NCBI GenBank assembly: GCA_025617745.1
Contig: CM046853.1
Coordinates: 58,365,233 to 58,429,232 of the forward strand
DNA length: 64,000 nucleotides
Source of the DNA: Heliocidaris erythrogramma
Lineage: Eukaryota > Echinodermata > Echinoidea > Camarodonta > Echinometridae
Direction of reading: 5' to 3'
Position numbers and translations under genes: made by a program. Positions 747-48,256 of this stretch are shown piece after piece; within the stretch, counting starts at the first letter, position 1, and every line of letters begins with the position of its first letter. The notes under the pieces are model-generated. The model was not told where the DNA came from. It was given only the letters and a program-made list of their open reading frames with translations, and made no database searches.

Positions 747-3700
747 CTTTTAAAAGCAACAACAAAAATAGTAAATGAATATTAACAATTATTTAAAACC
801 GATCTAGGGTTCTGGTAATAAAATGAAACTGCATTTCAGAAGAAACTGGTTTAAATGTGAATTGTTTTATCACACGGCACATGGGTTGTTTTGGCCAAGT
901 ATAATCAAACTTACAAATACCCACTGGAAATCAGATTCACTGGAAAGCAAAGCTCCACTTTCACACATCGTCATTAAAATAAGTAGGAAGAGAAAAGCGG
1001 TTGGGACTATTCTAACTTGATTTCCTCATCTTCCTTTGCTCATTTCTCAGTCCCGCGATTAATTTTTCGCTCGACTGAGTAAGGTGAATTTCACATGCTT
1101 TTAATTTTGCCGACGCCCTAGGCTCCCTGGCCAAAGAATACATAAATGAAAATATTCGCATGTTTTTATTTTCATTCCGCGCGAAATGCACGAAAATTTC
1201 CACACCGCGAAATATTCCATTTTTACAGTATTATACATACTGTGCTTTTTCTATTAAAAAAGGTTGGCAAATAACAATCTATACACTGGTAATGTACATT
1301 ACATTTTGATCCACAAAAAAACACAATGAAAACAATGAAAAGAAGAAGCAAGCCACTGAAAAGTTGCGTCTGATTCCATAGTATATGACACAGGTTGCTG
1401 AGTTGAATTTTGTTCATGTACACTGTAGGAAACCACACAACAAAATCTTACATTGACAGAACAAGGCAAAAGCAATCACGTGTGACATGGTGTAAGAAAA
1501 ATATAAATTTCAAGAGGATAAAGTGATTCACTGAGAACTTCATTAAATCCTTTTTCCTTGATATGTTCAGTGATGATGATTATCATTCCTCTCTTCCTGT
1601 TTTCCTCGGTGACCATTCTTTGTATCCAATTTTGATCATACGGATAAACATTTTCAAAAGCAGTGTGTAGGATGGACAAAGTTCTCACTCTGTTTCTCAC
1701 TTCACCCTGGTTGAACCCTAACTTTCTTCACCAACTTGTAGAATACTTGGTGGATGTCGGGATGAATAGTCCCCCTCCCCTCCCCTCCCTCCACACCCTC
1801 TCTCTCTCTCTCTCTCTGTCCCTCCCCTTGCTTGCACACACTCTTTCATTCTCCCTCAAAGTTTTCTCCGCTCCACCCCTCTCTCACTTTCTCTTTTTTC
1901 CTCCCCCCCCCCCCCCCCTCTCCCCCCTCCACCCTCTCTACATATATGTATACCCCTCTCTGTTGCACAATTGATAAAATGAAGTTTATCACCAAAAATA
2001 TTAAATCATTTTCAGTCCTGCATGACATATCAGACTTTTTATCTAGACAAAGTTTACAACTGAAATTAAAATCGTATCAACCTAATGTTCGTAACACTAA
2101 ACCACTTGAACTAACCAACACCTCTTTTGCCTGCATTTCAATGTTGTTTTCATCCCTTAAAGAAGTATTGCTTACCTGCTTGAGCACCCTGTAGTTTGTC
2201 AGTTAAACTCATGATGTCATCTTTGGCTTGTTGCAGAGCCTTTTCTAACTTCTTTTTACTCCTGTGAAATAAAACGTAATAAAAAAAATACTCAGATTTT
2301 ATAAAACACATTTTCTTGAGAATATAAAGCACATCTGTAAAACAGAATAAAAAGGAAAATCAGGGTGAATGGGAACAAAAGGTGGAAAAGCATTCTGGCA
2401 TGACATTTGCTCTAAGGAATGATACAGACCCTATTCATTTTGCTTTTAATGCGTGATGAATAAGGACATGAAAAGTGTCTGCATCAATCCTAGGCAAAAG
2501 ATATATATCATAAAACACTATTCCAATTCTTGTTTGTATTTGCTCTGATTGTTCATAGTCACCCTGCGCGTTATGATATACTTTAGGAGTAACCATGAGG
2601 AACCCAAGCAACTTTTTCACCTGGGTTGAAAATAAACATACATGTACCTATCATGAAAAGACCCCCAGAATCTCCTCAATCCATCTCCCTACATGTTTGT
2701 TGAAGCACACTGGCTACCAAGACTCAGACAAGTGAATACCCCTACCCCCCCCCCCCCCCCCCCCCCCGACTGGTGAAAGATGGAACAAAAACAGAGGCAA
2801 TAAGAAAGTTATGAATTTTTGAAAGTTGTAATCACTTATACGGGAATTTCAAACAAGCCAAATCGGTAATGTCACTGTGCTGTAGCAGAAGACAACTCTC
2901 CCATTGGCTCCAACACACAAAATTAATAAAAATATAAATTTTTCATGTACATGTACTGCTTAGTAGGATATTTTTTGGAGGACATATAACAGTATGCCAT
3001 CTACAATAGGTTTTGAGTATGGTACTGCCCTGGGGGAAAGGGTGCTCAGGAGAAAACTGGAAATTAATAGTAGTTTAGTGTACAACAGACAGGAGATGAT
3101 CGTTAATATGTCTCAATCGACTCACCAAATAGCGAAGTTTAGGTTTACATGGATGTATATTTCAAACATACATAACTTTATTATTCCTTGTCCGATTTCT
3201 TTCAAACTTTGACCATCCTGTTTCTCTCATTTTTTTGCTTTCACACATATCAACATTATCAATGTTGGATTGCCCTTTAAGCATGGCATTATATTTACAT
3301 TGTATCTCCTCATCTAGGAGTACAAATGGCTACCTCATATTAAGATGAGAATGCCACTGGGGTTGTGTGGACTTTTGAAATGGCCACTAGCTGTAATGCT
3401 TAACAGCAGTTGAGAATCATAACTGAATTCAATGATTAGGTAAGCCCACCGCACACTATACGATCGACTGCAATCCAATTTTGGAAATAAATCACAATAG
3501 CATTAAATATGGGCATTTAACAAATAAAATCTACCCGATTCAGGTTCTGAACAATAATATGAATACTAAACATTGAGTTTTTACGTGCTGTTTAAAATCG
3601 TTGACAATCGTAAGACTGCTCTGACATCACTACGATTCAGAGATTTAGAGGCGATTTGGCTTTTCCTCTCACTAGAAAGCTTACAACAGGACATATTTTT

Positions 3701-10989: not shown

Positions 10990-13848
10990 CTACAAAGAAG
11001 ACACAGCGGCCTTCAAGGTGGCTGACGCAAACAAAGCTTCACCTGCGGGAATATCCCTAAGGTAGCAAGAAATGAAGGAATTGGGCGAACGCCAATAAGC
11101 AGCCTTCAAAATATCAACAAGCGCCACACCTTGAAACAGAGCCCAAGGAGTGCTGACACTACGAGTATCATGAGCACGAGGCTTACTGTCGGATAAAAGA
11201 GCCTCTGTGCCAGCGGCCCTAATAGCTTCAACGATCCATCTAGAAATGGAATCAAGAGAGGCAGGAGAAAAAGGCTCTCTAGTGATCAGGAACAACTGAT
11301 CATCCTTACGATAAGACTTAGTCTTATCAATATACCATTTGAGAGCCCTAACAGGACACCAAACTTTGTCCTCACGCACCGAAGAAAGGTCAGAAAGTGG
11401 ACAAAGAAAAATCTCAACAGGACCGGAGGTAGCTGTCTGATTCTTGGCAACGAAAGAAGCCCTAGGAATCAATCTAACACCTTTTCTCTCCCAGCGAACA
11501 TGACCAGGAGTAAGAGAGAGAGCATGAAGAGTACTGCGCCTCTGCCCAGAGGCAATAGCTACCAAAAAGAGCGTCTTAACCGTAAGATGATGAAGCGAAG
11601 CTTCGCCTAACGGTTCAAAAGGAGGTTTCGCCAAGGCCTCCAGGACTTTAGGCAGACTCCAAGACGGCACTAACTTAGAAAACGAAGGTCGTTTCAGAAA
11701 GAACGAACGAATCAAACCGCTTAGTAGCGGGGAATTGGAAATCCCCGAACCATCCGAAAAACCCGAATGAATGGCCCCGATCGCCGAACGGTAGCCTCGG
11801 ATAGTAGAAATAGATCTCCCTTTGTCAAATAACGAGATTAAGAAATCCGCAATTGAACCAATAGGAGCCTTAGAAGGGGTTTGATTTCTCTCTTTGCACC
11901 AAAGGAAAAAGACCGAGAGACGGGAATTGTAAATTTCCCTAGTAGAAACCCTACGACTGGACATTAAAAAGTCCGCGGCTCTATCAGAGAGACCCGACTG
12001 TCTTGCAGATTCCCTGACAGGGGCCAAGCAGTCAAATGAAGAGACTCCGGATTGTGGTGAAGAATCCCCGATAGGGGCTGTAACACCAGATCCGCTCTTA
12101 ACGGGAGAACTAACGGTTGAGCCCTTAGAAGGCTCATAAGTTCCGGAAACCAATTCCTCCTGGGCCAAAAGGGAGCTATTACAAGCACCCTCGCCCGATC
12201 TTCCCTGATTTTCCGCAAGACACGCGGAATCAGTTGGAAGGGAGGAAAGGCGAATCCCTGAAGGTTCTCCCAGCTGAGGGAGAAAGCATCGAGAGCCCAT
12301 GCTCCCTGATCGCGAACACGGGAGCAATACTTCGGCAGCTGGTGATTTAGCACCGACGCAAATAGATCCACTTCCAGTGGACCTAGGCAACTGCGAATGC
12401 GGCAAAATACCTCCGGATGGAGCATCCATTCCGATGGAAGATACCTGCCCCGGGACAGAAAATCCGCAATGAGGTTTTCCCGACCGGGGATGAAAGAGGC
12501 CACGGGTGTGATTGCCATGCGACGACACCACCTCCACAGCTGAGCTGCTAGGGCATTCAGGGCAACCGAACGAGTGCCTCCCTGCCGATTGATATATGCC
12601 GCCACAGTAACATTGTCCGTGAGAATCAGAACCGAACGACTGAGAAGTCGACTTCTGAAATGGAGCAAGGTCAACAGAACTGCCATAAACTCCAGGACAT
12701 TGATATGAGGAAGAGTCCCAAGATGAGACCAATCCCCCGCAACCGTGCTGCCGTTGCAGTGTCCTCCCCACCCCAACCGAGAGGCGTCCGTCGAAACCGA
12801 TATCGACGGAAGAGGGGCAGAGAAGGACCTGCCTCGCGCGAGAAACACCTCGCTCGTCCAACAAGCGAGAAGAGACTTGATCTTTACTGGTACTGGAATC
12901 CAGACCAAAAGAGAGTCTTTTCCCGGCTTGAAGAACCTGAGGAGATGTCTCTGAAAGGGTCTCATGAGGAGCCGGCAGTCCTCTAAAACATCGACTAGAC
13001 TGGCTAGATAACCTAGAAACTGAAGCCACTGTCTGGCCGAGACTCTTCTGGCCAGCAAGAGCTTGCGAGCCGCAGAGACAATGGTGAGAATCCTGTCTCG
13101 ACTGGGCCGAGCTAACTGATTCCTTATGTCTAACACCGCCCCCAGAAAAACTGGGCTGCGAGTGGGGACTAACTCTGACTTTTCCCAATTTATTAGGAAA
13201 CCTAAGTCTTGAGTAAGAGAGACGAGCAAACGAGTCTCGTCCAACAAACGATCGCGCGACTCCGCAAGGAGAAGCCAATCGTCCAGGTAACAAAACAACC
13301 GCAGGCCGCGACGCCTCAGAAAGGCCGCTAGCACCGCTACAACTTGAGTAAAAACCCGAGGGGCCGGGCGCAGCCCGAAGGGAAGAGCCCGAAAACGATA
13401 AGTCTCCGAGAGGAAGGAGAACCCCAGAAGATCGCGAGATGCGCGATGAATGGGAATGTGAAAGTACGCGTCCTTGAGATCTATCGAGACCGCGTAGTCT
13501 TCCCTTTTTATCAACGGAAGAATGGAGGCAAGAGTCTCCATCCGAAAATGAACCGGAGGAATAAATTTGTTTATCCTTTTTAGATTCAGTATCAAACGAA
13601 GTTTTCCCGAGCGCTTGGGAATAACAAATATTGGAGAAAGGGAAAGAGACGGCCTGTCTCTTACCCTTTCTATAGCCCTCTTTTCCAGAAGAGACTCGAT
13701 CTCCTTTGAAGCATGAGATCGAGACAGGGCAGACATGGGAGGTGACCGAATTCTTATAGCCCCTCCGGGGAGCGAATCGCAAAGATCTATGAAGAATCCG
13801 TCTCGCACGACGGAGAGAACAAATGCGTCCCCGGAGATGGCCTCCCAA
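10990..13848 (-). CDS. DIRS tyrosine recombinase (C-terminal third of a long overlapping frame)
   Basis: The open frame is 952 codons, but roughly its first two thirds overlaps the polymerase frame and is Ser-rich with no recognisable fold. The recombinase is probably only the last about 330 residues, from around 12000 down to 10990. There, a SAM-like core-binding region (SDRAADFLMSSRRVSTREIY, then RSISTIRGYRSAIGAIHS) precedes a catalytic domain with an Arg (ASGQRRSTLHAL), the HDTR box (893-896) and the nucleophile Tyr near 929 (SFISCYLRD). It integrates the circular DNA copy without a target duplication. The translation start is unknown. Confidence 0.85.
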   Translation of the reverse strand: MGGHLRGRICSLRRARRILHRSLRFAPRRGYKNSVTSHVCPVSISCFKGDRVSSGKEGYRKGKRQAVSFPFSNICYSQALGKTSFDTESKKDKQIYSSGSFSDGDSCLHSSVDKKGRLRGLDRSQGRVLSHSHSSRISRSSGVLLPLGDLSFSGSSLRAAPGPSGFYSSCSGASGLSEASRPAVVLLPGRLASPCGVARSFVGRDSFARLSYSRLRFPNKLGKVRVSPHSQPSFSGGGVRHKESVSSAQSRQDSHHCLCGSQALAGQKSLGQTVASVSRLSSQSSRCFRGLPAPHETLSETSPQVLQAGKRLSFGLDSSTSKDQVSSRLLDERGVSRARQVLLCPSSVDIGFDGRLSVGVGRTLQRQHGCGGLVSSWDSSSYQCPGVYGSSVDLAPFQKSTSQSFGSDSHGQCYCGGIYQSAGRHSFGCPECPSSSAVEVVSSHGNHTRGLFHPRSGKPHCGFSVPGQVSSIGMDAPSGGILPHSQLPRSTGSGSICVGAKSPAAEVLLPCSRSGSMGSRCFLPQLGEPSGIRLSSLPTDSACLAENQGRSGEGACNSSLLAQEELVSGTYEPSKGSTVSSPVKSGSGVTAPIGDSSPQSGVSSFDCLAPVRESARQSGLSDRAADFLMSSRRVSTREIYNSRLSVFFLWCKERNQTPSKAPIGSIADFLISLFDKGRSISTIRGYRSAIGAIHSGFSDGSGISNSPLLSGLIRSFFLKRPSFSKLVPSWSLPKVLEALAKPPFEPLGEASLHHLTVKTLFLVAIASGQRRSTLHALSLTPGHVRWERKGVRLIPRASFVAKNQTATSGPVEIFLCPLSDLSSVREDKVWCPVRALKWYIDKTKSYRKDDQLFLITREPFSPASLDSISRWIVEAIRAAGTEALLSDSKPRAHDTRSVSTPWALFQGVALVDILKAAYWRSPNSFISCYLRDIPAGEALFASATLKAAVSSL

Positions 13849-14000
13849 GCGGGGAGAAACGCGTGAAGACGGCCACCTACCACATTCGGTTGAACAAGCG
13901 CTCGGGGAAAAACATCAAAACCCAGGCTTGGCCTTCTGCGAAGCCATCGCCTTACCACGAGTACCTCTCGAAATGCCCCTGCCACGACTCCCTCTCCCAC
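11964..14000 (-). CDS. DIRS reverse transcriptase / RNase H
   Basis: Frame of 678 residues. Reverse transcriptase motifs are in order: FVIPKRSGKLRLILNLKRIN (about 125-144), DLKDAYFHIPI (174-184), the catalytic CYLDDWLL (237-244) and LGFLINWEKSEL (267-278). RNase H follows: STDASRLGWGG (403-413), Glu437, TDNVTVAAYINRQGG (461-475) and the late Asp513. The last about 140 residues (VDLFASVLNHQLPKY, FAFPPFQLIP, IAPFWPRRNWFP) form the conserved C-terminal region typical of DIRS polymerases, sometimes described as methyltransferase-like. It copies the element RNA into DNA. Confidence 0.92.
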   Translation of the reverse strand: MGEGVVAGAFREVLVVRRWLRRRPSLGFDVFPRALVQPNVVGGRLHAFLPAWEAISGDAFVLSVVRDGFFIDLCDSLPGGAIRIRSPPMSALSRSHASKEIESLLEKRAIERVRDRPSLSLSPIFVIPKRSGKLRLILNLKRINKFIPPVHFRMETLASILPLIKREDYAVSIDLKDAYFHIPIHRASRDLLGFSFLSETYRFRALPFGLRPAPRVFTQVVAVLAAFLRRRGLRLFCYLDDWLLLAESRDRLLDETRLLVSLTQDLGFLINWEKSELVPTRSPVFLGAVLDIRNQLARPSRDRILTIVSAARKLLLARRVSARQWLQFLGYLASLVDVLEDCRLLMRPFQRHLLRFFKPGKDSLLVWIPVPVKIKSLLACWTSEVFLARGRSFSAPLPSISVSTDASRLGWGGHCNGSTVAGDWSHLGTLPHINVLEFMAVLLTLLHFRSRLLSRSVLILTDNVTVAAYINRQGGTRSVALNALAAQLWRWCRRMAITPVASFIPGRENLIADFLSRGRYLPSEWMLHPEVFCRIRSCLGPLEVDLFASVLNHQLPKYCSRVRDQGAWALDAFSLSWENLQGFAFPPFQLIPRVLRKIREDRARVLVIAPFWPRRNWFPELMSLLRAQPLVLPLRADLVLQPLSGILHHNPESLHLTAWPLSGNLQDSRVSLIEPRTF

Positions 14001-16173
14001 GAGAAGGAGCTGGCTGTGGCTCAGGAGGCGGGACCCTAGACACGCGACTGCGTTGACCCGAAACGGGACCAGCAGGTCTACGCTGAACAGGGGCCCGCGT
14101 TGGCTTAGAGCTAGTGTGAAACTGCTTAGTCATATCCGAGATCTGCTTACGCGCATCGATCTCTCTCTGAAAAACCGTAGCGAATTTACCACCAAAAAGC
14201 GAAGGACCCCGAGACGGAACATCTCGGAGAAGTTGAGCAATGCCCGACTCTCTAACACCCAGTGCCGAGAGAGCCGAGGTCCTGCGACGGAACGTAGCCG
14301 AAGCAGCTGCGGTGGAAAGCTGCGACCACTGCAGACAAAAAAGAGTATGCAACAGGTCGTCAATAATCAGCTTGTCACCATCGGTAACATTCAACTCCTC
14401 CGCCCTGGACCTAAGGTCGGAGAGAAACCCTTGAAACGCCGACAAACGCATCCCCGACCTAACCTGGCTTTCAATATTAGACCAGATCTTATCCTCCGCC
14501 TTGAAAGCGGCGGAGGTAAGCGGATTAGTCGCCCGTAAGCGACGACCAACCTCCAAAATCTCAGGAGACAGAGTCTTAGCCTTAAAAAAGCTGTCTTGGT
14601 CCTGAGAACAAAAGGCAAAGGCCTTACCCTTGACCGCATTAGAGCGCTTAACCAACAGCGCGGCCTCAATGCGGTCATACTCCAGCTTGAAAACCTCCTC
14701 AAGAGCAATACCCTCAGAGGAATCCTGCTGCTTAAATTTCCAACGCGAAGTCGAACCCTGCGCGCGGGTTGACTGAAATTCAGGGAGATATTTGGACAAC
14801 AAAGCAATCGCTTCTACCCCGCGAAGAGCAAGCGATTGAGACTCCGTCTGCCCAAGCGATTCGGGAACCGAAGCTTGAGAAGCCACATCCGAATCTGGTT
14901 CCACTCGAGTGGAATGAGACAAAGGAGCACTAACAAAGGCCTCCGCAGGCAGAGCCTCGCATGGTTCAACAAAAGTCTCCTCGCCCGGCGGAGCCCCAAG
15001 GGCCGCGGGAATAGGAGGCACATGCGAGTCCGACTCAGACAAAGAGGAATCAATCACAAAAGGCTGATTAGACTCAAGGCGAGATCCCTGAATAGGGACA
15101 GAAGTCAGGGTTGAAGTAGCCGGTACAAAGGACCAACCCTGATTCTGAGCAAAAGCCCGCATCATACTGAACATGTCAGCTTGAGAGGAGCTAGCTGGGT
15201 TAGCCAGGTCAGACGGGCAAGAGGCCGGCAAAGCCTTGCCACTTTTTGCCTTCTTCTTGGCCTTTTTCTTGGCTGGCTCGACAAAAGTCGTAGCCGAAAC
15301 CCTTTTCTTAGAACGCTTAATCGGATTCGTTCGGGTCCCCGAAGCCTCTTCGGAAACACGAACCGATCCCTCCGCGGAGGGGCGTTCACTTCCCATAAAG
15401 GGATTGGAGCGCTCATGGCGTAAGCCTAGAGAATCGCCCAAATCACCCATATTGGCTAAGCAAGAAGATGCAGTAGCCTTGGGTTGGGAGCTAAAAGCTC
15501 CCAGTGCGTGGGCAGACCGAGATGACTCGGTATGTGCCCGATGACTACTAAAGGCGTGTGAACCCGCTATTGGACCGCTCGAAAGCAGCAATAGGGGAGC
15601 ACTAGTAGTCACGCACTCAGGTGAAAACACCTGTTGCTCCGAAGAGCGTCCATAATTGTTAGCTCGAGCATTCCCATTAGCTGGCAATGTAGACAGCCCA
15701 GGAAGTACTCGTTCCCCCATATGGCGTTTGCCGGGGGCTAGGGTTTGAGAACCCAGACCAACATGGACTAAGCCCGTGGGCTGCCCTGCAGTAGTGGGGC
15801 ACGTCTCCCCTAACGGATCAGAGCGAGTGAACGCTACCGTACGGGAAACAACAGCCCCCCCCTCTGGTCTCAGCGACCGGGGGATTGGATTCGAGATATC
15901 CAAACCACTAGAATCTGACGCCACCCACCCCGAAACCACGGGCTTCGGAGTTGACAATCCCGATTCAGTTAACGCCACCCGTCCCGAAGCCGCAAGCTCC
16001 GAGACTGGCAAACTCTGCAAGGAAACACCACTAGGCAACTTACCCTTAGCCCTCCTCCCTCCCCCGTGTACCGCAGTACTCGGGGGAGTTCTGGAGGGCC
16101 GAGTCGTCTTGCTAGACGACTCTTCGGAAGAAGCAGGTCTCCTTGACCTAGCTGCTTCTTCTTCCGAATCCAT
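13915..16173 (-). CDS. DIRS gag-like protein
   Basis: Open frame of about 750 residues if it starts at MDSEEEAARS (16173); an upstream in-frame ATG at 16215 is less likely. The region just before the ATG reads like a 3' splice site (TGTTTTATTGCAG), so a leader intron is possible. The N-terminal half is Ser/Pro-rich and low complexity. The C-terminal part (about residues 500-680) looks helical, and the tail is Arg/Gly-rich (GRGSRGRGISRGTRGK), suited to nucleic-acid binding. It overlaps the start of the polymerase frame slightly. Position and composition, not a domain hit, support the gag call. Confidence 0.75.
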   Translation of the reverse strand: MDSEEEAARSRRPASSEESSSKTTRPSRTPPSTAVHGGGRRAKGKLPSGVSLQSLPVSELAASGRVALTESGLSTPKPVVSGWVASDSSGLDISNPIPRSLRPEGGAVVSRTVAFTRSDPLGETCPTTAGQPTGLVHVGLGSQTLAPGKRHMGERVLPGLSTLPANGNARANNYGRSSEQQVFSPECVTTSAPLLLLSSGPIAGSHAFSSHRAHTESSRSAHALGAFSSQPKATASSCLANMGDLGDSLGLRHERSNPFMGSERPSAEGSVRVSEEASGTRTNPIKRSKKRVSATTFVEPAKKKAKKKAKSGKALPASCPSDLANPASSSQADMFSMMRAFAQNQGWSFVPATSTLTSVPIQGSRLESNQPFVIDSSLSESDSHVPPIPAALGAPPGEETFVEPCEALPAEAFVSAPLSHSTRVEPDSDVASQASVPESLGQTESQSLALRGVEAIALLSKYLPEFQSTRAQGSTSRWKFKQQDSSEGIALEEVFKLEYDRIEAALLVKRSNAVKGKAFAFCSQDQDSFFKAKTLSPEILEVGRRLRATNPLTSAAFKAEDKIWSNIESQVRSGMRLSAFQGFLSDLRSRAEELNVTDGDKLIIDDLLHTLFCLQWSQLSTAAASATFRRRTSALSALGVRESGIAQLLRDVPSRGPSLFGGKFATVFQREIDARKQISDMTKQFHTSSKPTRAPVQRRPAGPVSGQRSRVSRVPPPEPQPAPSRGRGSRGRGISRGTRGKAMASQKAKPGF

Positions 16174-16596
16174 ACCACTGCAATAAAACAGACAATAAAG
16201 TATACTTTTTCTCAAAATAAGAAATACTTCAACTGAATGCAGTAAATAAGGGTAAAATTATTTGGGAGATACGCACTAAAGAAATTTTCACAGCCTAAAA
16301 ACCGTAAGAATAAACGCCGAACCCGAAGGCTCGGTGACAAACGGAAACACCCGCAAACACGGAAATATCTACGTGGGGCTGACCGTGAAAGAGAAAAATA
16401 AATGCCAAGAAAGGGAATCAAAAAATCCCTTGCAATCGGCAAGAGTGACTAATAAAACACAAAGTACTATAATCTAAACGAATATAGGTACCTAAAAGTG
16501 CTTTAACTATGTGAAAAAGCGCACCAAAAAGATACTATACGACCTGATTTCAGGAGCGCTGTGACTATACGTCCTAACTCGTCGGGGGCGAGCAAG

Positions 16597-23466: not shown

Positions 23467-23745
23467 TGAATATATCATAAAGAAATGTTTGTTTTATGTG
23501 TGAATTTGTCAACGTGTACACACGTTGTCTCATATAGGCCATTATATAGCGCACAGTGGAATTGGTATGGATGTACCCCCTACGCTCGATGGAAAGAGAG
23601 GGGCTATATGTGAGATTGTTACTTTTCTTCGACGGGAGCCCGGATAGCTCAGTTGGTAGAGCACTGGTCATGTAATCCAGGGTTCCGGGTTCGAATCCCG
23701 GTCGGGACATTGTAATTTTTCTCACATTTCTTTACGATATATTCA
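23467..23745 (+). repeat. tRNA-derived element within 21-bp inverted termini
   Basis: TGAATATATCATAAAGAAATG at 23467 is mirrored at 23725-23745 with one change. Inside is a tRNA-like segment (23638-23708) reading GCCCGGATAGCTCAGTTGG and GGGTTCGAATCCCGG. It has A and B boxes, an intact D arm and T arm, but two acceptor-stem mismatches and A instead of T before the presumed anticodon. The 5' half resembles tRNA-Lys. It is better read as a SINE head than as a working tRNA gene. Confidence 0.6.
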
Positions 23746-40189: not shown

Positions 40190-40287
40190 TCAAGGTTCTT
40201 CGAGTGAGCTGTCCATTATCTCTTGGATGAGCCTTAGGATTCTCATTTTTCGCGGATGACTGTCTACAATGATGTCCACATCTTCAC
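40190..40287 (-). CDS. Peptide precursor, exon 3 (C-terminal tail and stop)
   Basis: The acceptor is TTCTTCCGCTGCAG|GTG. It codes GEDVDIIVDSHPRKMRILRL and IQEIMDSSLEEP, then TGA at 40192-40190. The RK pair could release the last 18 residues as a second peptide. Confidence 0.8.
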
Positions 40288-43200
40288 CTGCAGCGGAAGA
40301 AGAAAGAAGGAGAGAGTGGAAGAGGTGATAATTAGTTTCTAATCACAGTCTACATTTACAAGTAGATAAGACCGGACCCTTGTCTTTAAAGATCAGTTGA
40401 CCTCATCAACTCCTTGGCCTTACAAAGTGAGTCGGAGATGTCTCAAAACGTCGTAAAACTTAAAAACAAACTTATACTACAATCTTATTGAGAATATTCA
40501 TTGATTTAATTCGGCATTGTTCGATCAACAGTATTTCGGTACAACAGAAGTACTTTCGTCTACTTATTACATCTCATCTTCGTGTTTACATATTTTTGGT
40601 TCAATTCAGACATATATTATTTCGAAAGTTTTCGTTTAAAAGAATTGTAGTGTTTAGGAAGGTTTAACCAGTTCCTCTTCACAATACAGTCATTGATAAT
40701 CTCCTTTCTCGATGCGTGTTCTTTTAACATACATTTATATTTAAAGACACCGCTTTTTGTCAACGATGAGGAAAGTCCTATGTTGTATAACATTCAGAAA
40801 TGATAGGAATCGATTTTTTTTGTTTCATGGCCCGCTTGCGAGATGATGATCAAATTCAAGGCACAAGATGGAATTTCATGCTCATGTAATCAAGAGGTGA
40901 TAGGGGTAAAAAAGGATCAAGACGTGTTCTAATCATGTGTACATGATTACATACGTGATAAAGACACAGAGGAGAAGTAGTACACGGATGGGCCTATCGC
41001 AAAAAAAAAGTTGTCTATTTTCCTTATGCTAATGCTGTATAGTAAAGTGGCATATCCAAAGGGAACGAAATGCAATCCTGGAGATAATAAATCGCATGTA
41101 CAGTGTATTTCTAATTTTCTTTCCGGGGCTGTAAACGGGGAAGGACACTTCCCTTTCGTGTTTCCTTTCATGTATTTTCACTTTTTTCTAAATATGTTTG
41201 CATATTTAGTCATATCTAAAGGACATTATTTCCCGCGCTGCATAGACATGATAGATAACTGCTCATCCTCATCCTCCCCTCTTCCCTTATCTATCTTTCT
41301 TTCTCTCCCTCTCTCTCTCTCATCGTTTCTTTCTCTCACTCTTACTCTCTCTTTCCCTCATTCAAAATAACATTACACATAATACATCCCAAGCTGAAAC
41401 ATAATAGTACGATGAACTTCCTCGGCCTCCTGCAATTCGATAATCCTTCCAACGTATTATGTATACTTGACTAGTTTCTACTGTGATAAAACGGTTTAGG
41501 TAATGAAATCTTTTCGAACCATTAGGCGCCCCTCTCAATCATTTTCACTCATCCACCCTTTGTGCCAATTTACCCGCTCGAATATCTCTATATTTAGCAT
41601 TCGTTTGTTCTCAATATCTCGTGACGTTCTAATATGTAAATTCCATCATGTGATTTTTTTTTAATGCACTCCATGACTTATTTCAAAGGTACCATGCAAC
41701 CTTTGGGGCTGTGACGAAACATCTACGTTGATTGGTTAATCACCGATTTAAACATTTATTTTGGTGACGTATTAACTTTCCAGCTACTTTCGACTTATTT
41801 TTCCCATTCCATTTCTGGCCTTAAAATTTCCAACATAAATATAAGCATCTTCATTATATTTACTTCAAAGATATTAAATAGACAGCACATTTTATCTCTT
41901 GCATGCATGTTCCATCTTTTTCCCCCAAACTCTTTTCATTACTTTACATCTCTTGCTAATTCTCTCTGTCTCGTTCCCATCACTTTTCTCTCCAGTTCAT
42001 TCACTCTCTTTCTGTTCGTCTCTGTCTCTGTCTCTCTCTGTCTCTCTCTCTCTCTCCCTCTCTCCCTCTAACTCTAAATTACCTTCCCCTTTGTACTTTA
42101 TTTCTCACTAGCTTTCCCCTCGTATCAGTATTTTTCGTGTTTCCGGTTTAAAATATCAGAAGATTAAGCAAATTAATCCATTTGACGCTACTATACAGCC
42201 AACAGTGAATCTAGAAAAGTTTTTTTCAGTTGAAGTTTTTTTGTTGTTGTTCTTGATTTGTAATCGCAGGTGATCAAATAACATTTTCAGCTTTGTTACC
42301 TAATAAAGGCCAAGTCCACCATAACAAAAAGTTGATTTGAATAAATAGATAAAAATCCAACAAGCATAACACTGAAAATTTCATCAAAATAGGATGTAAA
42401 ATAAGAAAGTTAAAAGTTTAATTTCTGCAGATTTCACAATTAGGAAGCTCTCATTGAATTGTGTATAGGTTGCAAAATGGCAATTACACATGTTCAGCGA
42501 GGAATCAAAACCTTGTTTCACATTATAAACAAGGAAAAATTAAAATATTTCATGTAATAAAATACAAAAGAAATAGTGATTGGGTGACGTCACTGGTTCC
42601 CTCATTTGCATACTGAGCAGGATGTGCATATAACTGTTTTGCGAAATTAAGCGAAACTTTAAAATACCATAACTTTCCTATTTTACATCCTATTTTGATG
42701 AAATTTTCAGTGTTATGCTTGTTGGATTTTTCTCTATTTATTCAAATCAACTTTTTGTTAGGTTGGACTTGGCCTTTAAATGGCAAGTTTGAGCAATTTG
42801 CATATTTTGCATATCGAAATCCAATGTGTTATTCATCTTACGTTATGCAGCATAACCGGTGACGCAACGAACGGAGGAGAGCAGGGAATTTGCCCTGTGT
42901 ACGTGACGTTTTGGATTTATGAATATTACGCAAAACGCTCAAAGGTGCTTTTGGGGCAACAAAGCTGAAATTGTTCGGAGACAACATGAGATCATAATGT
43001 TCACCAAAAAATCAACGGAAAGAATTTTTCTAGGTTCATAAAATGTCTCTATTCTTCTTTTTATTGAAGTACGTTGCCTTTGAAAATGATGAGAGGTTGA
43101 AAACTGCATCACACTTTCATTATAATGACCATTAATATTCTTATATCGGTATAGTGTTGAGATTCGTGTAAATGATTTTTAATAGTAACGTGGGTGAAGA

Positions 43201-46200
43201 TCTTTGCATTGGCATTACAGGGATTCATTTTCGTGAAATAGTTGAATGCCGTGGTCAAAGAATATTCAATTATTTATCATATTTACTTGTAGTGTGTCAG
43301 CAATTTAAGCTTTGTAAAAAAAAAAAAAAAAAAAAAAAACCTACCCGCATATCTATATCCTCATTTCTAAAAATGATCTCTAATCTCTAATCTAATCTCT
43401 AATCTAATCTCATCTCTAATCTTTCTTTCTATGAATCCATCTATTTATATGTATTTACAAAGTTACACATTCATCTTTCGTTCTTCTATCTATCTATCCA
43501 TCCATTGTTAGATATAAAACATTAGTATCTCATGACCGTTCGTGAAGTACCTAACATAAACTTTGAAATAGGCCTGTCTGTTTCATGTATGAGTGGAAAT
43601 TGAGTGGAAAATTGTGACGTACCTGACATTGTTTTCACATTTTCAGTGTTCATGCCTAGACCTACTTTGAGGGGTCTAAAACAAAACATTATGGCATATC
43701 AAAACTGTCGTATATATTTCAGATTTTGCTGCATTTTGGGGGTATGATGGTATCAATATGCGTCTCCTGATGATCCTCGGGAAATTGATTGCAAGCATTC
43801 TTGCCGACCAGGGTATTATTATCAGGGTTTACTGTATAGAGTCGATCAATCAACCCTCTTCGTAGTTACAAATATATACATATGTTGTATTTTAAACATA
43901 TAAGTCTATGATTTTACAATCTGAGTTCCTGTGTAAGTATATTATAAGTGAAAGGCTCTTTGAATGACAGATTTACATACGTTTTATCTGTCTCGGTTGA
44001 CCAAACATGCTACGATGATTGAGCAGTTATAAAGGTTTACGTCATACACTTATGTGACGTCATAGTTATGTCAAGAGACAAAAGGTTCAGAAAGTGCAGT
44101 GAAAGCCATGAAAGGGCATCTCCCTAATTAATGGCATCTACAGGTAAACATCGCGCTAATTGTGATTTTTTAAATGGAAAGTTAATTGATTGTTGATTTC
44201 ACTAATTCTCTTCACCTCTTGATGAATGTCAGATTTGCATCGCATTGTATTTATATAGTTACCACTTCAAAATAGAAATACGTAGAAAATATTAATGTAT
44301 AATGCATTCAAATTAATAAAAAGATGTTTCGTGCCGGTTTAGATACAACTCAAGATGACAATGCCGGTTTAGATTATTGCTCAAACATTATCCGTTTACA
44401 CTTATCGTCGTGTCTTATAATATAATGGTTAAGTCGAAATCTGAAATGATTTTATCAAATAGTATTTATTAGATCAATGGGAGACGTTTCATCTACATCT
44501 TACTCGAATAGTATAGACTACTTACATCATATCAAAACAGAAAAAATGTGTATTAAGTCTTTTCATTAATAAACCGACGCAGAACTAATATATAATAGTC
44601 CTGTTTCTCAAATAAACTTGTATTTTCTTATCATTTTCCACGAATAAAGATGAGAAAATAATTTGTATAGTTATGAATTATACTTCCTCCTCATTATCTT
44701 CCTTTTTGTGGATACTACTGAATTTCTATATATTTTATTATCTGTGTTTGAGGATAAAAACAATGTTATTTCATCATTTTTCCCCAGCAAGAGACTGGGT
44801 TTTTTTTAACAGTTGTAATAATTGTATGGCCACTAAAAAGATTATAGACGACAAGTACAATCTCATGTATATTGAAAAGGTATAGAAATGGTTTGCATTC
44901 GTGGAGCTAATCAATTTTCCGAATGCGAAACTTTGAATAGCGCAGTGAATGTCGCCCCATTTCTTTGTCTCTCCACCTCTCTCTCTCTCTCTCTCTGGGT
45001 ATGATTTAATTTGATATGTGTTATCAGTTTGGAATATGAAATCACATCACCTATGTAATATTATAATCATCATAATTATCGTAAAATGATATACGCAGAT
45101 TCTGATTTATATGCATTATTACTCAAAACAAGCTTCATGTTCGGGCGATGGTCGTGCAACTAATCATGTATGATCATTACGTTTCTATATGGATAATTTT
45201 CCTACCTAATAACTTTCTCATTGCCATTTGCACGGCCAATGAAATGAGAATTCATTTTAAATGGACAATGCGAGCCGGGCATTAAAAGATAAATGACTTG
45301 ATGCGACCGTATTAATCCTGTGATTGAGTTACGGTAAATACGGCCAGGTACTTAGTTTCGTGTGCACCTGATAATTTCGAATATCATTTTACAGAATGGA
45401 AATAATGAGAAAAAAAATGACAAGCTGGAGAAGAAATGAAACACCCTTTTGGGAGGATGGTTTGGGTGAAATTTCGGTCAGTCACAAACAGACAAACAGA
45501 GAATCTTTATAATGGATGCGAATATGAACGGAGCATTACCGCAATATTGTGTGTGTGTGGGGGGGGGGGGTGTTCTAGTATTGCCTTTCACACTTCAGGA
45601 TGCATATCGGCATTACTATGGTTTTTGCATATGTGAACAGGGCTTCTGTGAAAGTCACCGTATTGGAGTTCAACACAGGAGAATAAACCTAAATCTCCAG
45701 AGATGCCTAAAAATAACTCGTATCAATCTTCATGCAATTACATAAAAGATCCAATTAATAACTAACATATGAGAACAGCTTTCGCATGGCGGAAATCATA
45801 AACTACTTCAAGTTACATAGTAACCAGACAGACAAAACCAAGTAAAAACTTTTTAAATACGATTGATTATGGGAACATTCGTTTCCATCAATGCCATTTA
45901 AAATTTGTCATTCAAAATCTATTCATCATGTCCTATGTTATCAAAGAAAGAAAGGTATAGGGAAAGAGAGAGGCTGTAAAAGAAAGGTATTTCGGATTTA
46001 TTGTAATAAGCAGATCTTTCAAATAAAGGAAAAAACATCATGGAGAATGTATGTTTACCCATGGGTGTTTTTTACGTTTTTTCTTATATAGGCATACACA
46101 GATCATGCTCACCTTTCGCATCGTTTGCTCTCAACCCACAATGTCTCAACGAACAATTTCCTCTCTCATCACCCTTTAAAATTCGTTTTCTTTTTGGTGA

Positions 46201-47917
46201 GCCATTACCCTTGGCCACTTCTCTCAAGTAAAACATTATACCCGACACATATAGACGGGACCAACACAAGACCGAAAACAGACCGTTAAAAATATTACAT
46301 TACCCCCCCCCCCCCCCCCCCCCCCACCCCCGAATGTCCAAGTTACTGATCGGTTTGTCATGTGACTTTCGAACATTCGAACAAACGAGTGTATATACAT
46401 GTAGGCCTATAGGCAAAAACATACATCCTAATCTGAAAACCAGTTAACGAACGTTCACAAATTGGAGAGAATGAAAAGATAATTTACAACTTACCTTGAT
46501 TTGCCAGGTATTCTGGAGGTGACTTTACGAGTGGGCCATTTTCCTCTGGTAAGTAACCGCTAAGGTCTATCGTGGAGGGGTCGACTGCGAGGAGGCGGGC
46601 GGCGGGAGACTGGGGATCGATGTTGGCGGGGACACTGAGATCACGGTCGTCCGAGAAGAACGTTCTTTTTCCGATGTGTACATGGCAGAGCTTCGGGTGC
46701 CGCCCCTTGCAGAAGGAGCTCTTTGTACTGTGTGTCAGGTGGAATGTGGCACAGAGTGCTATCAGTACCGAGAATAATGCTGTGTGGAAAACGTAGAGAA
46801 AAAAAATTCATGATCATCACTTTAAAAACATTGTTTTTAAAACAAACCAGTGCTATGCGGTACAGAAAATAACATAGAAAACAATGGAGGGAGACGAGAC
46901 ATTTCGTCATTAGAAAAAAAAAAACATACATCATCATGAAGTGTAATGCAGAACAAAGACGATGGAGATACATTGCATCTCTGAAAGCGGATTTGCCACG
47001 GCTCTTGACTTTACAAATTTGGGCCTGGAATCAGATGCTTCAAAACTTCTACTGTGAAACCGTTGCTGCATTTTTCACAGACGTTCTTCAATCCGATCTC
47101 ATTGTTAATGGCTACGACCGATATGTAACGTCACCATCCGAGAGACGCGACTCGGATTCAAACCCAGGTCGGCTGATAGGAACACCAAAGAGCTGGCCAC
47201 TGGACAGACTTTCATCACTGCCTGTCCCTGGTCAGGGAGTCACATCTGGGAGGCTTACATTTCTTATTGTCAGCGTCATTTTGAAAAAAAAGGATGCGAA
47301 AAACAGTATAATATAACAACAATACTTTTAAAGTAGTTCTATAGGGAAAGGGGGAAAGCAATCCTAACGATGTTGAAAATGAGAAGACGGTTGTACTGAC
47401 AAGGTTTTAAAGTTCGGAAGGCCGCAACAATAATCTCTGCATCCATAAGCGAAACAAAAACTGCTTCGTAACACTTTCCTCTCCTGTGAGCATCTAGAAT
47501 GTGAATAATGGCATTAGTATAGTGGCACTGGAATGAAAATAGCTGACATTATCTTTTGAAAGTCGAGAATTCCAAGACCGTGTATAATTCCCTAGCCACG
47601 AATATTACATAGAGAAACCAGTATAATGAAGATTACAAAATTATAGGGAGGTGGAGTGAAAGAGTGAACGAAACAGGGAGGATGTGGAATAAATTAAAAT
47701 ACAGAACATAACGAAAATTATATACCAACTTGAATAAACTGCACACAATTCATTGTGAAATATCAAGCAATGAAATATATAATGGCATATCTTTCTTCAT
47801 GATAAAAAATATTGAACAAAAACAGACGAAATTCTCTCTATCTCTCTATGAAGAGAAAGATGAAAATTCAAAACGTTAACGAAAAACAAAAAAATGCTTA
47901 CACTGGGTGAGATCCAT
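40190..47917 (-). CDS. Secreted peptide-hormone / neuropeptide precursor, complete, 132 residues, family unknown
   Basis: Three exons join in frame: 47902-47917, 46495-46779 and 40190-40287. Residues 1-23 (MDLTQSLFSVLIALCATFHL and on) form a signal peptide: short polar start, hydrophobic core, small residues before the cut. Next comes SSFCKGRHPKLCHVHIGKR: Cys29 and Cys37 can close a seven-residue loop, and Gly42-Lys43-Arg44 is the classic amidation and dibasic cleavage site. The expected product is a cyclic amidated peptide of about 14-18 residues ending HVHI-amide. The rest (45-132) is an acidic spacer and a helical tail RKMRILRLIQEIMDSSLEEP, behind a second basic pair at 113-114. Position right after the signal resembles the vasopressin and calcitonin layouts, but the loop size and sequence match neither, nor MCH or elevenin as I know them. 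Secretory precursor: confident. Exact family: unknown. Confidence 0.8.
42304..42778. repeat. Long-arm MITE (TAAAGGCCAAGTCCACC)
   Basis: TAAAGGCCAAGTCCACC at 42304 faces GGTTGGACTTGGCCTTTA ending 42778. The arms match for about 130 bases, so 475 bp folds as a hairpin with a loop of about 200 bases. TA at both ends suits a TA-targeting element. Confidence 0.85.
46303..46325. repeat. Poly(C) tract, 23 bases
   Basis: Uninterrupted C run about 170 bases from the donor of precursor exon 2, in the intron. Confidence 0.9.
46495..46779 (-). CDS. Peptide precursor, exon 2 (signal core, cysteine peptide, spacer)
   Basis: The acceptor is TTTTCCACACAG|CAT and the donor is AATCAAG|GTAAGT, phase 1 at both ends, so the exon is symmetric. 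It is GC-rich against AT-rich introns, which supports coding. It holds LFSVLIALCATFHL, the CKGRHPKLC loop and the GKR site. Confidence 0.85.
46780..47901 (-). other. First intron of the peptide precursor gene
   Basis: A plus-strand open frame of 126 codons at 46936-47316 overlaps here. It has no recognisable domain and seems to be chance or old repeat. No other feature is seen. Confidence 0.55.
47902..47917 (-). CDS. Peptide precursor, exon 1 coding part
   Basis: ATG at 47917 with context CAAACAAAATGG is the first ATG downstream of the predicted start site. It codes MDLTQ plus one base. The donor is CCCAGT|GTAAGC, phase 1. The 5' untranslated part would run to about 48060. Confidence 0.75.
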
Positions 47918-48054
47918 TTTGTTTGGATGAACGAAGCTGACTGTGAACAAGATATAAAATATACTCTACTTTAGATCAAGAAAGAGGAGCGAGAATTTGC
48001 AAGGTTTCAGACGGAGAATCAGAGCGTTGGTTGAGCTGGAGATGTATGCCTTAC

Positions 48055-48256
48055 TGAAGTGAGAAAGAAGTTACCCACTGCTTTTAAAATGAACCAAGGA
48101 ATGATCATCGCCGAGCGCGAGGTCGCGAGTATGAGCGGCCGCGGCGCGCGCTTTTTCCCAATGACGTGAAAGGCAAAAGAGGGGAGGAGTTACATGTAAA
48201 TGTTATATATCATTCACTGATGGTGATGCGCAATGGATTTCTGTAATGACGTAAAG
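48055..48256 (-). promoter_or_regulatory. TATA/initiator promoter with CRE-like sites for the peptide precursor
   Basis: On the minus strand, TTTTAAAA (48089-48082) stands about 29 bases before an initiator-like CTCACTTC centred on 48060, the expected TATA-to-start distance. TCACGTCA-type (48162-48169) and TTACGTCA-type (48247-48254) CRE-like sites lie about 100 and 190 bases upstream, with a CpG-rich GCGGCCGC block between start and first CRE (48135-48151). CRE control is common for neuropeptide genes. Confidence 0.5.

Follow-up and report, generated by a model that had tools for sequence, protein, structure and literature searches.

Gene structure and precursor anatomy

The window analyzed here is a stretch of 64,000 nt from the genome of the sea urchin Heliocidaris erythrogramma (assembly GCA_025617745.1, contig CM046853.1, positions 58,365,233 to 58,429,232), and its minus strand carries a three-exon gene (40190..47917) predicted to encode a small peptide precursor. 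An earlier note on this DNA had described three minus-strand exons joining in frame into a 132-residue precursor, and rebuilding the gene by splice joining gave the same structure. The exons of 16, 285, and 98 nt (Table 1) join into 399 nt, equal to 132 codons plus a TGA stop, with no internal stop or frameshift. Both introns are bounded by GT..AG and are in phase 1, with intron 1 lying in the signal peptide and intron 2 in the C-terminal region, and two alternative offsets tried for the exon 3 acceptor each threw the frame out. In the unspliced sequence, exon 2 lies 11 codons downstream of an in-frame TGA and the stretch between them holds no ATG, so that an upstream first exon is required, and exon 1 provides one. 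The gene observation itself is confirmed.

Along the precursor, a hydrophobic signal segment is followed by FCKGRHPKLCHVHI-G-KR; next come an acidic spacer and, past RK113-114, a C-terminal piece of 18 residues. Residue positions and charges bore out the signal peptide, seven-residue cysteine loop, GKR, and acidic spacer that the note had listed. The peptide motif, C29-x7-C37-HVHI-G-KR, follows close behind the signal peptide. Besides Cys29 and Cys37, there is a cysteine at residue 15, within the signal peptide, and none after residue 37, so that the acidic tail is cysteine-free. The only dibasic sites are 43-44 (KR) and 113-114 (RK). The net charge is +4 for residues 24-41 and −10 for the spacer (residues 45-112). 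The (−3,−1) rule allows a signal-peptide cut after Ser23 and at some other positions, and the exact cut is a prediction from this rule.

Applying established neuropeptide processing to these motifs suggests the following steps. The signal peptide would be removed after about Ser23, and Cys29 and Cys37 would close one disulphide ring. A prohormone convertase would cut after KR44, a carboxypeptidase would trim the Lys and Arg, and PAM would use Gly42 to amidate the end, so that the product would be about TKSSF[CKGRHPKLC]HVHI-NH2. The monoisotopic mass calculated for one disulphide and an amide is 2074.083 for this form (TKSSF..), 1844.940 for a form starting at SSF.., and 1670.876 for one starting at F... 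The acidic stretch would serve as a spacer, and a second cleavage, at RK113-114, may divide the tail. The peptide might then be released from neurons or endocrine cells.

Table 1 Features of the precursor gene and of the rest of the window.
Feature	Position	Strand	Description
Candidate core promoter	48052..48089	-	TATA-like TTTTAAAAG (48089-48081) and initiator-like TCAGTA (48057-48052), 5' untranslated region next; read from the letters
Exon 1	47902..47917	-	ATG in AACAAAATGG context; codes MDLTQ and the first base of codon 6; donor GTAAGC
Exon 2	46495..46779	-	Remainder of signal peptide, cyclic peptide, G-KR, most of acidic spacer
Predicted mature peptide (residues 24-41)	46673..46726	-	TKSSFCKGRHPKLCHVHI; true N-terminal end may differ by a few residues; Cys29 46711-46709, Cys37 46687-46685
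Gly-Lys-Arg (residues 42-44)	46664..46672	-	Amidation donor and dibasic cleavage site, by motif
Exon 3	40190..40287	-	C-terminal tail; RK (residues 113-114, 40252-40247); final 18 residues MRILRLIQEIMDSSLEEP; stop TGA
Inverted repeat in intron 2	42304..42778		109-nt arms, 96% complementary, 257 nt apart; likely a foldback element or miniature inverted-repeat transposable element (MITE)
tRNA B-box-like motif in intron 1	47154..47164	-	GGTTTGAATCC; possibly a piece of a tRNA-derived short interspersed element (SINE)
Retroelement	10990..16215	-	RVT_1 match (E 7.2e-21) in one of three long overlapping open reading frames; DIRS-like by eye
Splice-bounded exon candidate	2176..2334	-	Lysine-rich, coiled-coil-like; perhaps a neighboring gene running off the window
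tRNA-Thr (TGT) gene	23638..23709	+	Isolated (Rfam, ARAGORN)

Coding signal and searches for relatives

The whole window was scanned in six frames for a hydrophobic 12-mer with C-x(3-12)-C-x(0-12)-G-[KR][KR] no more than 25 residues behind it, and exactly one such arrangement was found, that of the precursor gene. In 100 second-order Markov sequences of window length, the mean number was 0.15 per 64 kb, falling to 0.02 when at least 40 codons of open tail and a nearby ATG or CAG/TAG were also required, and these chance figures are optimistic because the scan was devised once the finding had already been seen. The arrangement exceeds chance.

Base composition and splice signals were also compared with the rest of the window. 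The G+C content of exon 2 was 0.547, compared with 0.371 and 0.348 in the flanking introns. Values at or above the exon 2 level were reached by 67 of 2549 segments of 285 bp (step 25); six of these lie outside the retroelement (~10.5-16.5 kb), one of them overlapping exon 2. Splice sites were ranked among the 6722 GT and 7095 AG sites of the window with matrix frequencies that are our own approximations. The donor and acceptor of intron 2 were both in the top 0.03%, while those of intron 1 were weaker (top 4.7% and 3.0%, respectively). By an ad hoc score applied to the whole window, exon 2 was the top splice-bounded open exon outside the retroelement, and four within the retroelement outscored it. 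Taken together, the anatomy and the chance test lend good support to the note's proposal of a secreted precursor that yields a cyclic peptide with an amidated C-terminus, and a peptide hormone is a likely reading of the gene.

The precursor had no match in Pfam at a cut-off of E 10, and its three matches in the PDB (best E 0.092) were taken as chance. Four stretches in IMG/VR fit a search pattern, none of which encodes a relative, and a full-text literature search for the peptide motif strings returned four unrelated papers only. The 1.064 Gb assembly (26 contigs) was searched for copies of the gene; the searches gave either a single match at the gene's own locus or only exons 2 and 3 of that locus, and no second copy or paralogue was found.

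Candidate receptors and other sequences in the genome

The receptor of the peptide may be a class A G-protein-coupled receptor of the bombesin/endothelin/CCHamide-related group, of which the genome has at least five. A stretch of the human GRP receptor was used as the query at E 1e-10, and at least 113 receptor matches were found in the assembly among the scored candidates (130 of 1016 first-look candidates). We fetched 15 of these 113 loci and picked six, partly by mutual BLAST, for comparison with the PDB. The best matches of five of the six (L017, L018, L019, L022, and L031) were bombesin-family receptors, and the sixth (L027) was somatostatin/opioid-like. L017 is the likely orthologue of the bombesin receptor. 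Four further loci (L020, L021, L028, and L029) had high mutual-BLAST scores to the bombesin-related receptor set, the PDB comparison covering the other six loci. On sequence similarity, candidate receptors are present in the genome.

L020 and L021 (G000 C1:57.635, 57.924 Mb) are near-identical receptors (418/420 residues); the distance to the peptide gene is 0.77 Mb for the first and 0.48 Mb for the second. This arrangement could be due to chance, segmental duplication, or unmerged haplotypes.

In echinoderms, receptors related to those of bombesin, endothelin, and CCHamide form an expanded set (PMC12002301). Eleven are described in starfish; a ligand is reported for one of them, and that ligand drew no response from two others that were assayed (PMC12002301).

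A neurophysin search of the assembly gave three matches, and the regions around two of them were inspected. One neurophysin exon has, ~14 kb upstream, an exon with two NGFFF-G-KR copies, which agrees with an echinoid host, NGFFFamide being the sea-urchin NG peptide. These copies were seen only in the wider regions, and the narrower regions at the neurophysin loci contained no oxytocin- or NG-type motif. Two neurophysin exons (L003 and L004; G000 C16:10.19, 11.02 Mb) lie on one contig with identical scores, like several receptor pairs, which points to either recent duplication or haplotypes that the assembly left unmerged. The exon candidate near the start of the window had no match in Pfam and three weak matches in the PDB (best E 1.2). 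Mitochondrial genes were recognized by eye as cox1, nad4L, cox2, atp6, cox3, nad3, nad4, nad5, nad6 (reversed), and cytb, an order that fits echinoids.

Comparison with known peptide families

The closest architectural match is with the little-studied echinoderm np25 or "CCHamide-like" precursors, a family akin in form to insect CCHamide, which include Arnp25 of starfish, Ajnp25 of sea cucumber, and Ophionotus CCHamide-like 1 and 2 of brittle stars (PMC4772807, PMC6586643, PMC5627052). In these precursors the signal peptide is followed directly by one two-cysteine amidated peptide and a dibasic site, with a long C-terminal stretch after the dibasic site in Arnp25 and Ajnp25 (PMC4772807, PMC6586643, PMC5627052). 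The present precursor likewise has one two-cysteine peptide directly behind the signal peptide, ending in Gly and a dibasic site. Arnp25 has 97 aa, with the peptide at 32-45 and KR at 46/47, and its peptide has two Arg ahead of the first Cys, a four-residue cysteine loop, and a terminal Gly; Ajnp25 has 147 aa, with the peptide at 31-47 and KR at 48/49 (PMC4772807, PMC6586643, PMC5627052). By arithmetic on the printed residue numbers, Arn25 resolves to 3 residues + C-x4-C-x4-G, and the present peptide has the same four residues from the second cysteine to the amidation Gly. If cut before Ser26, the present peptide reads 3 + C-x7-C-x4-G and by the same arithmetic is 17 residues long, as Ajn25 is in print. 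Taken as a whole, the layout makes it reasonably probable that the gene is the echinoid member of the np25 family, encoding a secreted neuropeptide or peptide-hormone precursor from a single genomic locus. The note's suggestion that the family may be undescribed is weakened because the np25/CCHamide-like precursors provide this close match in architecture; its comparison had covered vasopressin and MCH only, and the suggestion is not well supported.

Several points weigh against this placement. The loop has seven residues compared with four in Arn25, the one np25 loop compared. The agreement in length with Ajn25 carries little weight, as a cut before Ser26 puts Lys25 at −1, against the (−3,−1) rule. 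Membership in np25, although the most likely assignment, rests on layout, with Arnp25 (KT601742), Ajnp25 (MF422084), and the Ophionotus precursors (MF155229, MF155230) compared by their published descriptions. The signal peptide has no basic residue among its first five, the splice sites of exon 1 are ordinary, and the presence of candidate receptors does not show pairing; the differences from protostome CCHamides and from the bombesin-type gene, given below, point the same way. The gene might instead be a real neuropeptide precursor of a separate and undescribed family, perhaps restricted to echinoids, with the np25 resemblance reflecting a generic layout of small cyclic amidated peptides. 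The unlike loop would suit this alternative, as would the empty Pfam search, the lack of a PDB match better than E 0.092, and the absence of the motif strings from the literature searched. In the parts of the literature consulted, np25 is reported from starfish, brittle star, and sea cucumber, and the main-text passages covered name no sea-urchin member. The legend of Fig. 3 in the brittle-star paper lists Ophionotus, Asterias, Apostichopus, Ophiopsila, Amphiura, and Patiria for the CCHamide and NPY panels jointly, with sea urchin absent. For the sea cucumber A. japonicus, NP25 is described as not transcribed at the blastula and gastrula stages. However, the position of the peptide, its single copy, its amidation, the four residues past the second cysteine, and the long C-terminal stretch all fit np25 as printed, and we regard a separate family as possible but doubtful.

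Two further explanations concern whether the gene works at all and what its product does. It is very unlikely that the locus is no working gene, with splice-compatible frames arising by chance or left as a decayed relic: the composition of exon 2, the chance scan, the splice sites of intron 2, and the exon ranking all oppose this, as do 132 codons free of stops and frameshifts, even though the locus is known from genomic DNA alone and exon 1 is just 16 nt long with unremarkable splice sites. A secreted cationic host-defence peptide, amidated and held by one disulphide like some hairpin antimicrobial peptides and neutralized by an acidic pro-piece, would agree with the charges of +4 and −10. 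The ring, however, is poor in hydrophobic residues, and no paralogues were found in the assembly. The peptide also adjoins the signal peptide, whereas the antimicrobial precursors known from urchins have the pro-piece ahead of the peptide. We consider a host-defence role very unlikely.

The note had also held that the peptide fits neither MCH nor vasopressin, and both exclusions stand. An MCH-type precursor was rejected since the echinoderm MCH peptide lies at the C-terminal end of its precursor and the present peptide is N-terminal (PMC4772807). The vasopressin/oxytocin type was rejected since it is marked by a neurophysin domain and a cysteine loop of four residues, whereas the present loop has seven, no cysteine follows residue 37, and Pfam gave no match. 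Protostome EP/CCHamides (GGNG) have Gly-Gly or Gly-Ala between the second cysteine and the amidated end, and an aromatic residue in the ring (PMC6617912). The present peptide resembles them in its two cysteines, amidated end, single copy adjoining the signal peptide, and a His between the cysteines, but its HVHI-amide has no Gly-Gly or Gly-Ala, its ring (KGRHPKL) has no aromatic residue apart from His, and it has no C-terminal His or Asn (PMC6617912). The echinoderm bombesin-type ArBN is likewise an amidated peptide adjoining the signal peptide and belongs with a related receptor group, yet as printed it is cysteine-free, and of the three introns in its gene the first, in phase 1, interrupts the peptide, compared with two phase 1 introns here, in the signal peptide and the C-terminal region (PMC12002301). 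As the present gene has neither a phase 1 intron inside the peptide nor a phase 0 intron in the C-terminal region, a bombesin-type identity was rejected on gene structure.

A sea-urchin np25/CCHamide-like peptide, once defined, would be a concrete candidate ligand for the orphan receptor group and would help to tell true kinship with CCHamide and endothelin from convergence. Endothelins have two disulphides, are not amidated, and come from a different type of precursor, and in these respects the present peptide differs from them. The likeness, seen after the fact, lies in the second cysteine followed by His-aliphatic-x-Ile and in the related receptors. It is conceivable, if improbable, that a single-ring Cys-His-Val-x-Ile amide is a surviving intermediate linking protostome CCHamide/EP to vertebrate endothelin, and the ligand of an orphan echinoderm bombesin/endothelin/CCHamide-related receptor, such a receptor being present as two near-identical copies at 0.5 and 0.8 Mb from the gene on its own chromosome.

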